From the NCBI GenBank assembly GCA_011773985.1, contig WVWN01000053.1, forward strand, positions 98,478-162,477: a stretch of DNA of 64,000 nt, in the 5' to 3' direction. The DNA is from Candidatus Zixiibacteriota bacterium. Lineage in GTDB: Bacteria; RBG-13-66-14; B26-G2; WVWN01. Of this stretch, positions 4,492 to 9,133 are shown one piece after another (the first letter of the stretch is position 1; each line of letters starts with the position of its first letter). A model generated the notes under the pieces. The model had not been told where the DNA came from. It did not search any database and worked only from the letters and a program-made list of their open reading frames with translations. The translations under genes were made by a program, and so were the position numbers.

Positions 4492-5466
4492 TTATTTATA
4501 GATCGCCTTAACCTTGCCCAACGAGGAAGGTTCTATCGAGACGGGCACTTCGTCGAAGTATTGGATGCGGGCGTTCCACGTATCGGCCACGTAGACGCGC
4601 CGGTCCGCGTTCACGGCGATCCCGCCGGGCTTGTCGAATTCGCCGTCGCCGGTTCCCTTCGAGCCCCACTTGCCCAGGAAGCTCCCGGTCGGGGTAAAAT
4701 ACTGCACGCGATGATTTAGAAAATCGGCGACGAAAACGCGGCCCCGACAATCTACGGTGACGGCGCGCGGACAATTAAATTGGCCGTCGCCGGTTCCCTC
4801 GGAGCCCCACTTGCCGAGGTAACTCCCCGTCGGCGTAAAATACTGGATCCGGTGGTTGGTGTGGTCCGCTACGTAAACGCAACGGCCCGGGCCGGCGGCG
4901 ACGTCGGTGGGAAACCAAAACTGGCCGTTGCCAGTCCCGTTCGTACCCCACTGGCCCACGTATTCGCCGCTCGGCTTGAAATACTGGACCCGGTGGTTGT
5001 GCGCGTCGGCCACGTATACGTAACCGAAAGCCACTTCTACGCCCTCGGTGTGGTCGAATTCGCCGTTGCCGGAACCCTCCGAGCCCCAACCGCCTACATA
5101 TCTGCCGATAAGTGTGAAGTGCGTGACGCGGGCCCCGCCGGACTCGCTCGTATAGACGGCCCCGCGGCCGTAACCTCCCGAAGGCGCAACGTCTATACCG
5201 CCGGGCGGATACACCAGGTCGGGCTCCTTCGTTTCCCACTGGCCCCTGTAGCGGCCGATGGCGCTAAAATATTGAACGCGGTAATTGCCGGCGTCGGCGA
5301 CGTAAACGTCTCCGTTGCCGGCGATGGCCACAGCCGCGGGGAAATTAAACTGGCTTTGCCCCGAACCCTCTTCGCCCCACTGGCCGGCGTACTTGTAAAC
5401 GCCCGCGCCCGAAGACGACGCCACAAAACACAACGCCACGACCGCCGCGACGTATTCTTTTTTCAT
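4492..5466 (-). CDS. Secreted NHL-repeat beta-propeller protein
   Basis: Signal peptide MKKEYVAAVVALCFVASSSG; repeated ~43-aa units such as GKWGSEGTGDGQFNCPRAVTVDCRGRVFVADFLNHRVQYFTPTGSFL; C-terminus EPSSLGKVKAIYK. Confidence 0.88.
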   Translation of the reverse strand: MKKEYVAAVVALCFVASSSGAGVYKYAGQWGEEGSGQSQFNFPAAVAIAGNGDVYVADAGNYRVQYFSAIGRYRGQWETKEPDLVYPPGGIDVAPSGGYGRGAVYTSESGGARVTHFTLIGRYVGGWGSEGSGNGEFDHTEGVEVAFGYVYVADAHNHRVQYFKPSGEYVGQWGTNGTGNGQFWFPTDVAAGPGRCVYVADHTNHRIQYFTPTGSYLGKWGSEGTGDGQFNCPRAVTVDCRGRVFVADFLNHRVQYFTPTGSFLGKWGSKGTGDGEFDKPGGIAVNADRRVYVADTWNARIQYFDEVPVSIEPSSLGKVKAIYK

Positions 5467-5593: not shown

Positions 5594-5622
5594 TTGACTT
5601 GATTTCGCGGCTATGTTATATT
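5594..5622 (+). promoter_or_regulatory. Sigma70-type promoter of the propeller/HprK/peptide/PqqD/rSAM cassette
   Basis: TTGACT - 17 nt - TATATT, about 55 nt upstream of the 5678 start. Confidence 0.65.
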
Positions 5623-5677
5623 TTATATTAGGTAAAATATATTCAAAAGAAAAAACTACCGGGCGGAGGTACCCGCT

Positions 5678-6505
5678 ATGGAGAAAATCGGCCGATATAT
5701 TTGCCGAACGTCGTTGATTGCGTTGCTCGTGGGCGCCGCGGCGGCTCCCGCCGCTTGGCCCGCGCGCGACAAAATTATAAACTCGTTCCCCTCGCCCACG
5801 GAGACTCTCTACGGCCTTACGTATGGCGGCGGCGTCCTTTACCTCGGCGATACCCTCACTAAGATGATATACCGCATGAACCCCAACACCGGTTCCGTTA
5901 TGAGCTCGTTCGTACCCTCGCCCAAACCCACGGGCCGTTTTATGTTCGGCCTGGCATATTCCTCCGGTTATCTGTGGACCAATACGGGGAGTCCGACCAA
6001 GCTCTTCAAAATAATCCCGGCTACGGGGTCCGTAGTATCGAGCTACACCGTCCCGGACGTCTCCAGGAACGACGGCATCGCCGCCGACGCCGACCACGTC
6101 TACTTCGCGAACAACAGCTCGACGGATTTCTACATCTACAAGTTCTCGCCTTCCAGCGGGACCGTCGTGAAGAGTTGGGCCGGCGCCAAGTACCCGGGCG
6201 GCATGAATATAATTACGCACGTCCCGACCTCGAAACAGGTCGTGATGAATCTGGGGAACGTCGACGGCTGGGTATACATCTTCGACCTGGACGGCACCCG
6301 CCACAACGGCGAGCAATTCAAGATCGACGCCCCCTGCCCGGAGTCCTTCTTCACGGGCGACCTCGCCACGCGCGACAAAACGCACATATTCTTCGCCTCC
6401 AGTTACCTGGACGTGATATACGAGCACGAGATAGACTGGGGAGGGCAGGAAGAATACGCCGTCAAGCCCACGAGCTTCGGAAGGATAAGAGCGCTCTTCC
6501 GATGA
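5678..6505 (+). CDS. Secreted propeller-like (YVTN/NHL-like) protein, first gene of RiPP-like cassette
   Basis: Signal peptide ICRTSLIALLVGAAAAPAAWPA; repeats of the type YGLTYGGGVLYLGDTLTKMIYRMNPNTGSVMSSF; C-terminus KPTSFGRIRALFR. Confidence 0.75.
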   Translation: MEKIGRYICRTSLIALLVGAAAAPAAWPARDKIINSFPSPTETLYGLTYGGGVLYLGDTLTKMIYRMNPNTGSVMSSFVPSPKPTGRFMFGLAYSSGYLWTNTGSPTKLFKIIPATGSVVSSYTVPDVSRNDGIAADADHVYFANNSSTDFYIYKFSPSSGTVVKSWAGAKYPGGMNIITHVPTSKQVVMNLGNVDGWVYIFDLDGTRHNGEQFKIDAPCPESFFTGDLATRDKTHIFFASSYLDVIYEHEIDWGGQEEYAVKPTSFGRIRALFR

Positions 6506-7308
6506 AGTTCGTCGTCGGGCCGCCCTGGCTGCGCGTAACGGTAAAGGCCGGCGACGCCGCGTTGGCCCGAAGGCTCGCACATCAACTCGGGCACGCCGGC
6601 GCCGAACAAGGCGCGGAAGCCGAAGGCCCGACGCTCGAAGTACTTCCGGCGGCCGATATATCGGGAAGCGGGGGAGTCGGCTTTGAATTAAAAGGGAACA
6701 TCTTCCGCGGGAAAGACAAAGGCGGAGAGGGGTGGTACGACGCCGCGGAAGGGAAAGGAGAGTTTTCGCTTACGCCCGGGGGCGGCTTGTTTTTTCAAAC
6801 GGTTCTCAGGCAAATTTTTTTTTGGGAAAGCTATCGTAAGGGGGGGGTGGTGTTACATTCGGTGGCCTTTGCGGACGGCGACGACGTTATAGTCTCGTGC
6901 GGCCCGAGCGGGAGCGGGAAATCGACGCTGGCCGGGGTGTTGCGGACGCGCTTCACCGTATACACGGACGATATGAACGTCGTCGACGGCGACGGTCGCG
7001 TATGGGCCCTACCTTTCCGCGGGACCGGCGTGGAACGGGTTAATGCGGGCGGCGGCCTTTTGCGTGCGCTTGCGTTCCACCGCCCGGGCCGGGAGTTCAA
7101 GGCCGAGCCTCTCGAGCCGGCCGACGCCGCGCGCGAGCTGTGGCCGAGCGTCTTTATCCCCGAGCCGGCCGGCGCCAAGCTGAAGGGCTGTACCTTCGAA
7201 CGCGTCGCGGCCTTAGTCGGCCGCGCGGCCGCGTTCGTCGTAGACGTTCCCTTAGAAGAGAACGCCGCCGGCTTAGGATTCAGCAAAATATTAAAGGAAG
7301 TTGCTTAG
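6502..7308 (+). CDS. HPr-kinase-like P-loop protein (ScmC-like type found in radical SAM peptide cassettes)
   Basis: Walker A CGPSGSGKSTLAG in VLHSVAFADGDDVIVSCGPSGSGKSTLAGVLRTRFTVYTDDMNVV; ATGA overlap with preceding stop. Confidence 0.75.
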   Translation: MKFVVGPPWLRVTVKAGDAALARRLAHQLGHAGAEQGAEAEGPTLEVLPAADISGSGGVGFELKGNIFRGKDKGGEGWYDAAEGKGEFSLTPGGGLFFQTVLRQIFFWESYRKGGVVLHSVAFADGDDVIVSCGPSGSGKSTLAGVLRTRFTVYTDDMNVVDGDGRVWALPFRGTGVERVNAGGGLLRALAFHRPGREFKAEPLEPADAARELWPSVFIPEPAGAKLKGCTFERVAALVGRAAAFVVDVPLEENAAGLGFSKILKEVA

Positions 7309-7324
7309 ATAAAGGACGGAAAAC

Positions 7325-7519
7325 ATGAAACGTAAATACGTAAAACCGACCGTCGCGAGCGAGCGCGTCTTCTCGTTGGCGGCGCAAGCCTGCGACGTCG
7401 AATATTATGCCCCCGGCTGGTGCCAAGACGAACTAATCTACGAAACATGTCGAAGTCCGTGGAAGGTGGAAAACGTATTTTGTGGCGAGATAGTGTACCC
7501 GCTGAAAGAGAGGACCTGA
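7325..7519 (+). CDS. Putative RiPP precursor peptide, 64 aa, four Cys
   Basis: MKRKYVKPTVASERVFSLAAQACDVEYYAPGWCQDELIYETCRSPWKVENVFCGEIVYPLKERT; upstream AAAGGACGG; located between HprK-like and PqqD genes. Confidence 0.75.
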   Translation: MKRKYVKPTVASERVFSLAAQACDVEYYAPGWCQDELIYETCRSPWKVENVFCGEIVYPLKERT

Positions 7520-7693
7520 TATCAACGGGAACGCGAACGGGGCCGGCCTTTAAAACTTGGGCGAGTAGCGAACAGTAGGCGTTATAATACTGGGGGAACT
7601 GCGACGCCAATAACGTGAAACGCGCTGTCACGCGAAAAAGTAGTATGCGTGGGGAAGCGCTAAAGTAAAAGTAAAAAAACCCGGAACGCCGAC

Positions 7694-7963
7694 ATGGCCT
7701 ATCGTTTAAAGAAGAAGGAAATAGCCTACCGTAAGATCGGCGACGAGTACTTCGTCCTGACGCCCGACGACAACATGCTCCATAATGTGAAGGGCGCGGG
7801 CGTCCGGATTATGGAGCTCCTCGACGACGGCAAAGACGAGGACGGCATCCTGCAAGTCCTGTTGGAAGAATACGACGCGCCCGCGGCGGAGGTAGAGGCG
7901 GACCTGGCGTCGCTCCTGGCCGAACTTGCGGAAAAAGGGATCGTCGCCCGAAACGACGGCTGA
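7694..7963 (+). CDS. PqqD-like protein (RiPP recognition element family)
   Basis: AYRKIGDEYFVLTPDDNMLHNVKGAGVRIMELLDDGKDEDGILQVLLEEYDAPAAEVEADLASLLAELAEKGIV. Confidence 0.85.
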   Translation: MAYRLKKKEIAYRKIGDEYFVLTPDDNMLHNVKGAGVRIMELLDDGKDEDGILQVLLEEYDAPAAEVEADLASLLAELAEKGIVARNDG

Positions 7964-8016
7964 GGATAACCGCGCGAAGACAGCCGAGGGCGCGAGCCGT
8001 CGGCGTTTTTTCTAAC

Positions 8017-9087
8017 GTGAGCCCGCAAGAAGAAATCTACCGGCACCTCATCTACGCTACCGCGGCCCGGCGAATACCGGTCCTCGTAATGTGCAACCTC
8101 ACGTACCGCTGTCCCCTTTGCTGCAAGCACTGTTTCGCGGAGGACCCCGAGCCGGGCGGCGAGGAGCTGAGCCTCGCCGAATACGCGTCGCTTTTCGACC
8201 GGCTCGTCGCGATGAATACGTTTTTCCTGACCTTCTCGGGCGGCGAACCGCTGGCCCGGGCCGACTTCCTCGACATTATGGCCGCGGCGCGCGAGCGCCA
8301 CTTCGCCGTCCGCATCTTTACGGGGGGCTCGTTAATCGACGAGCGGCTGGCCGCGGAGATAGCCTCCCTACACCCCTCCGGCGTCGAGATTTCGCTCCAC
8401 GCCGCGACGCCCGAGCTCCACGACGACTTCGTGGGCCGGAAGGGGACGTGGGAAAAAGCCGTCGCCGCGGCGCGGCGCCTGCGGGAACTCGGCACGAGCG
8501 TCGTGCTGAAGATGAACCTGATGAACTTCAATTACACGGAAATGAAAGAAGTGTACGAGTTGTCCCGGTCGCTCGGCGGCGCGTTCCGCTATTCGCCGTG
8601 CATCTCCGTCACCAACAAGGGGGGGACGGCGCCGGCGCGGTTGCGGATGACGGACGAACAACTGCGGGATTATTTTCGGACGTTAAAGGACTGGGTCGTG
8701 GCCTTTTCGCGCGATGGCGACGCCTGCGACGAGGAAATCGGGCCGCCCGTCCGTTTCAACAAGCGCGCGCTGAGCTGTCTCGCCGGGGCCAACAACTGCT
8801 CCATCGACCCCTACGGGACCGTTTGGCCTTGCGTGTCGCTCCCCTTCGACCTGGGCAATATACGCGAAAAGCCGTTCGCCGAGATATGGGGCGGCGAGGA
8901 GGCCGAGCGCTTCCGCGCCCTCTCGGATGTTATCGCCGAGGAATGCGCGAACTGCGACCTCGACCGCTACTGCTCCCGCTGCCCGGCGTTCTCGATGTTG
9001 GAGGAAGGCGACATCCGAAAGGCCTCGAGAGAATACTGCCGCTTCGCCCGGGCGGCGAAAGAGGTCCTCCGCCGCCCCCTCCGGTAA
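8017..9087 (+). CDS. Radical SAM/SPASM peptide maturase-like enzyme
   Basis: GTG start; CX3CX2C in NLTYRCPLCCKHCF; FTFSGGEPLARADF; C-terminal Cys-rich SPASM region CLAGANNCSIDPYGTVWPCVSLPFDLGNIRE...CANCDLDRYCSRCPAFS. Confidence 0.9.
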   Translation: MSPQEEIYRHLIYATAARRIPVLVMCNLTYRCPLCCKHCFAEDPEPGGEELSLAEYASLFDRLVAMNTFFLTFSGGEPLARADFLDIMAAARERHFAVRIFTGGSLIDERLAAEIASLHPSGVEISLHAATPELHDDFVGRKGTWEKAVAAARRLRELGTSVVLKMNLMNFNYTEMKEVYELSRSLGGAFRYSPCISVTNKGGTAPARLRMTDEQLRDYFRTLKDWVVAFSRDGDACDEEIGPPVRFNKRALSCLAGANNCSIDPYGTVWPCVSLPFDLGNIREKPFAEIWGGEEAERFRALSDVIAEECANCDLDRYCSRCPAFSMLEEGDIRKASREYCRFARAAKEVLRRPLR

Positions 9088-9109: not shown

Positions 9110-9133
9110 AAGGCCCGGCTCGAGCCGGGCCTT
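9110..9133. terminator. Bidirectional hairpin terminator between convergent genes
   Basis: AAGGCCCGGCTCGAGCCGGGCCTT perfect palindrome. Confidence 0.65.

Follow-up and report, generated by a model that had tools for sequence, protein, structure and literature searches.

A conserved cassette of propeller, HprK-like, small peptide, PqqD-like and radical SAM genes in Candidatus Coatesbacteria, a probable pathway to a modified peptide

The window analyzed here is a 64,000-nucleotide stretch of contig WVWN01000053.1, and the cassette of interest occupies 5678-9087 on its + strand, where open reading frames for a propeller, an HprK-like protein, a 64-aa peptide, a PqqD-like protein and a radical SAM (rSAM)/SPASM enzyme follow one another in the same direction (Table 1). 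The stop codon of the propeller gene overlaps the start of the HprK-like gene in an ATGA at 6502, so the two are probably translationally coupled. The promoter upstream of the propeller gene is kept in four genus members as TTTGACTT...TGTTATATTT, with both hexamer regions invariant, in agreement with the first-pass annotation, which had described five same-strand genes behind one promoter. The hairpin 3' of the last gene comes from a scan in which the count of such sites in the sequence was close to the count in shuffles. The ORF list and Pfam matches for 5594-9087 included neither a signal-peptidase-like leader peptidase nor an MsbA-like exporter, and the cassette has no dedicated peptidase or exporter gene.

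Table 1. Features of the cassette and its borders (positions within the window)
Feature	Position	Strand	Evidence
Sigma-70-like promoter	5594..5622	+	TTGACT-17-TATATT, TG preceding -10; consensus scan
Secreted beta-propeller protein, 275 aa	5678..6505	+	DUF6923 8.3e-6 (Pfam)
HprK-like P-loop kinase (by homology), 268 aa	6502..7308	+	HprK_rel_A 4.1e-5
Precursor peptide, 64 aa	7325..7519	+	Profile, dN/dS, motif and C-terminus counts
Discrete PqqD-like RRE, 89 aa	7694..7963	+	Pfam PqqD PF05402 1.1e-13
Radical SAM/SPASM enzyme, 356 aa, GTG start	8017..9087	+	Pfam Radical_SAM 7.2e-25, SPASM 5.2e-14
Weak terminator-like hairpin	9117..9131	+	Consensus scan

The domain calls made at first reading proved unequal in firmness, those for PqqD, radical SAM and SPASM being strong and that for the propeller weak, while the HprK-like call is weak when taken alone and is upheld through relatives and fold. 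The window HprK-like protein is divergent, and its assignment is the weaker one, made by remote homology, with an HprK_rel_A match below the NCBIfam cut-off. It nevertheless conserves His119, a GPSGSGKST Walker A motif and Asp156, and across ten HprK-like homologues R103, H119, G139, K140, T142 and P171 do not vary, with D156 nearly invariant. Additionally, a profile of six class HprK-like proteins matches the HprK-like protein of a locus in another lineage (L060) at 5.9e-34, and that protein matches HPr(Ser) kinase/phosphatase at 1.8e-4. The leading PDB fold matches of the HprK-like model (mean pLDDT 58) are almost all PEPCK or HprK/P, the best at only 2.6e-3; the structure models, each built from no more than two or three sequences, count as weak evidence, and for the three-member HprK alignment only two loci were found in the contig scan. 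PDB matches of the window PqqD-like protein include PqqD and the lasso RREs TbiB1 and TfuB1, and by this comparison the putative RRE resembles lasso B1 proteins.

The five-gene set recurs in three congeners and in three other families of the class, in differing neighborhoods, and the cassette is present in all seven class genomes with the propeller as its first gene and a single rSAM gene in each. In tblastn and profile searches the order propeller, HprK-like, peptide, PqqD, rSAM was found in G001, G002, G003 and G004 (split over two contigs each in G001 and G002, and with two tandem peptides each in G003 and G004), and G005 and G006 carry propeller, HprK-like, PqqD and rSAM genes with the peptide or peptides last. 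The surroundings of the cassette are syntenic within the genus, but the eight flanking genes that were tested have no match at the G004, G005 or G006 loci, and because of this we regard the five genes as cohering as a unit; the survey of neighborhoods that had been suggested at first reading thus found the gene set kept across relatives, in differing surroundings. A second Coatesbacteria family (G007-G013) has a PqqD-rSAM-peptide cluster with neither propeller nor HprK in it, HprK homologues being present elsewhere in these genomes, and at one locus of the family (L053) an NTP_transf_5 gene lies upstream of the cluster. The peptide profile matches all 14 genomes of the phylum (Candidatus Coatesbacteria) and nine genomes of other lineages among 384 searched, with G117, G252 and G281 left uncounted for stops within the match. 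At several loci of other lineages rSAM, HprK or PqqD homologues adjoin related peptides, in the orders HprK-PqqD-peptide-rSAM (L100), rSAM-peptide-HprK (L101) and HprK-PqqD-rSAM-peptide (L139).

The window peptide, which matches no Pfam or NCBIfam model, has a leader of about residues 1-22 with the sequence YVKPTV (YxxPx[VIL]), followed by a core of the form CDV...C...C...C...ERT with four Cys and a C-terminal Thr. Sixteen phylum peptides share invariant K2, Y5, P8, S12, F16 and C23. Where dS could be estimated, dN/dS was 0.12-0.29 for the whole peptide, 0.05-0.12 for the leader and 0.17-0.49 for the core, figures that are rough since dS is near saturation. The peptide is under purifying selection, the leader more strongly than the core, and the low dN/dS together with the adjacency to cassette genes in relatives indicates that the ORF is real; its conservation, a point on which the first reading had staked its interpretation, therefore holds in both the profile matches and the selection estimates. 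A conserved leader and a variable core adjoining modifying enzymes, the pattern by which RiPP precursors are recognized, are found together in this peptide. The motif [Y/W]xxPx[LVIFAM] occurs in 35 of 36 peptides, the remaining one having a truncated start, and 35 of the 36 end in Ser or Thr, compared to 9.7% of 227 long ORFs from the same loci. This set is non-independent, many members being paralogues or congeners, and the profile that finds it includes C-terminal columns, although outside the phylum it is mainly the leader that is matched. The sole exception to the Ser/Thr ending is the peptide of L139 (G161), whose last residue is Asp and which has an HprK gene next to it, and peptides of the second Coatesbacteria family end in Ser although their cluster has no HprK gene. 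At L029 (G002) a short ORF starting MKKQHRKPSVGSEF lies between the peptide and PqqD genes and resembles a decayed second peptide gene.

The propeller has a signal-peptide-like N terminus and the C-terminal tag PTSFGRIRALFR. The observation at first reading that a secreted propeller opens the cassette holds in seven of seven class genomes but fails in the second Coatesbacteria family; within the phylum the propeller belongs to the unit in a single class. One known arrangement of a SPASM enzyme with a propeller is that of quinohemoprotein amine dehydrogenase (QHNDH), whose small subunit lies on the propeller subunit and receives its Cys thioethers from a SPASM rSAM enzyme. That the cassette peptide is likewise the cross-linked small subunit of a periplasmic enzyme would fit the leading position of the secreted propeller throughout the class, the four-Cys core, and the presence of the QHNDH propeller subunit (1jju_B) among the many fold matches of the propeller model, but this model is of low confidence (49) and its fold search returns propellers generically. 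Furthermore, the searches turned up no propeller in the second Coatesbacteria family, nor in those clusters of other lineages that were examined, the cassette lacks a heme subunit, a protease and a transporter, and the core varies strongly in sequence and length, so that we consider a QHNDH-like enzyme unlikely. For the propeller itself we would guess at an extracytoplasmic partner or receptor. Glutaminyl cyclase was considered and rejected for it: five-bladed QC folds rank high, but the Pfam match reaches only 0.052 and lies at residues 87-142, and we saw no instance of what we take to be the QC signature motif. A PxSxGxIKAxFR-like C-terminal motif is common to the cassette propeller, a divergent NHL-repeat protein (4492-5466, - strand) and a secreted-looking protein at L031, and is seen across the class (L031, L032, L033); it is possibly a sorting tag.

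The rSAM enzyme has a CX3CX2C motif and seven cysteines in the SPASM region, with the motif and the SPASM cysteines conserved in a 13-member alignment. Its nearest structures by profile are SkfB, PqqE, 5v1q, two cytosylglucuronate decarboxylases and 5wgg, and the profile is closest to SkfB and PqqE, both of which modify peptides. No NCBIfam model among the matches listed reaches its cut-off; the best scores include NirJ2 at 143 bits and AhbD at 123 bits (cut-off 500 for both). We reject a role in heme d1, heme b or quinone metabolism, which the first reading had named among the outcomes that would refute its interpretation, since these equivalog scores are far under the cut-offs and a leader-type peptide adjoins the enzyme in every member of the phylum. 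The sactipeptide and ranthipeptide maturases SkfB and CteB, which are among the nearest solved structures, are also SPASM rSAM enzymes with Cys-rich substrates, but the recognition motif known from sactipeptides is HIxxI (PMC12710340) whereas the leader here carries YxxP, and no HprK-like kinase accompanies theirs.

SynChlorMet, proposed at first reading as the closest analogue, proved to be a relative of the cassette but not the class to which it belongs. Both combine an HprK-like protein, PqqD, SPASM rSAM and a small YxxP peptide, and the HprK-like proteins of three loci in other lineages (L100, L101, L102) have the ScmC model as their best NCBIfam match. It could be supposed, then, that the cassette is the same pathway with one rSAM gene lost and another peptide core, the more so as L163 and L167 join PqqD and rSAM genes with ScmC and YxxP peptides. 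The peptides at these ScmC loci, however, are Gly-rich and end in Gly, and at the complete SynChlorMet-type locus L163 (G198) the set comprises PqqD, two rSAM, peptide and ScmC genes, with NTP_transf_5 and S26 peptidase neighbors. Moreover, among the matches listed the window HprK-like protein has no ScmC match and the window PqqD no ScmD match, and a search of the phylum genomes with TIGR04249 (ScmC) at E 1e-12 matched none of them. When 21 rSAM proteins were placed in a tree (arbitrarily rooted, and to be read with long-branch caution), those of SynChlorMet loci stood on long separate branches. We therefore reject SynChlorMet membership of the window cassette on the absent ScmC match and the one rSAM gene instead of two, and a derivation by loss of the second gene seems improbable to us. 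As a separate observation, the S26-type signal peptidase and NTP_transf_5 genes at L163 lie downstream and form the same accessory set as in clusters for linear polyphosphorylated peptides (LPP).

The leader motif, candidate RRE and kinase find close parallels in lasso and LPP systems. Lasso and LPP RREs bind [Y/W]xxPx[LVIFA] leaders (PMC13381572), and PadeK-type HprK-like kinases phosphorylate the C-terminal Ser of lasso precursors (PMC9266682). Paeninodin-type lasso clusters (PadeK/ThcoK) share with the cassette a YxxP/WxxP-type leader, a discrete PqqD-fold RRE and an HprK-like kinase, the C-terminal Ser being the phosphorylation site there and Ser/Thr the ending here, and the B1-like RRE would fit a lasso precursor whose cyclase and protease are encoded elsewhere in the genome, with the rSAM and kinase as tailoring enzymes. 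Against this, Transglut_core3 (lasso B2, PF13471) has no match in G000-G004 and only sub-cut-off matches in G005 and G006, and Asn_synthase (lasso cyclase, PF00733) has no match at the cassette, its matches in G000 being short. With neither a B2 protease nor a lasso cyclase at the cassette, though the YxxPx[L/V/I] leader is there, and with a SPASM rSAM and a multi-Cys core in their place, we reject lasso membership; a dispersed lasso cluster was already disfavored and is very unlikely. LPP systems likewise have a YxxPxV leader, a discrete RRE and an HprK-like kinase (the window assignment being by remote homology), and the second Coatesbacteria family has its NTP_transf_5 gene beside polysaccharide-type genes. 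Unlike the cassette, LPP systems bring a signal-peptidase-like protease and an exporter of their own, the words "radical" and "rSAM" are both absent from the main text of the LPP paper (PMC13381572), and LppK phosphorylates its precursor at an internal residue, Ser3 (PMC13381572). As LppK uses an internal Ser, the HprK-like kinase need not act on the C terminus.

Taken together, these results suggest that the cassette is very probably a RiPP pathway with a modified small peptide as its predicted product, and the biosynthetic logic read at first from an HprK-like protein, a Cys peptide, a PqqD-like protein and rSAM/SPASM is sustained by the conserved neighborhood and peptide and by the rSAM gene lying beside a leader-type peptide. 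Starting from what was directly established, namely the genes present and their conservation, the selection on the peptide, its leader motif and its C-terminal rule, we propose, with a probability of roughly 0.7 for the whole, that the discrete PqqD-like RRE would bind the YxxPx[VIL] motif of the leader and present the peptide to the SPASM rSAM enzyme, that this enzyme would put one or more radical cross-links into the four-Cys core, most likely as Cys thioethers, and that the HprK-like kinase would phosphorylate the hydroxyl of the C-terminal Ser/Thr. Taken singly, a radical cross-link involving Cys has about an even chance in our estimation, and for phosphorylation of the C-terminal residue the odds appear equally balanced. 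Two features that the first reading had not picked up, the YxxP motif of lasso/LPP type in the leader and the Ser/Thr found at almost every C terminus, are the most informative. The proposal is weakest in two places: the second Coatesbacteria family keeps a Ser C-terminus without a clustered HprK, and one peptide ends in Asp. More tentatively, and at somewhat less than even odds, the loci of several phyla may form one undescribed RiPP class whose SPASM rSAM enzyme and HprK-like kinase work through a lasso-type RRE and a YxxP leader, yielding peptides that are radically cross-linked and also phosphorylated at the C-terminal Ser/Thr. In our limited literature collection we found nothing that pairs HprK with PqqD and nothing on SynChlorMet, which is not proof of absence. 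If the proposal is true, the lasso-type leader/RRE/kinase module would be a portable toolkit of several RiPP classes, here tied to radical chemistry. The YxxP leader with a C-terminal Ser/Thr also offers a search signature by which precursors without any Pfam or NCBIfam model can be brought to light in poorly known lineages. The Ser/Thr rule makes a prediction about one residue, and a single mass-spectrometry experiment could check it.

Some loci of other lineages showed further arrangements. At L060 (G056) NTP_transf_5, HprK-like, PqqD and rSAM genes are consecutive, and a motif scan of this locus found no YxxP peptide. In G115 (L091-L096) at least six contigs together encode nine or more YxxP-type peptides with a Ser/Thr end; most of these share an EGC...LGRGK core and lie without a close rSAM gene. 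At L139 an MsbA-type ABC transporter gene follows downstream of the HprK-PqqD-rSAM-peptide genes.
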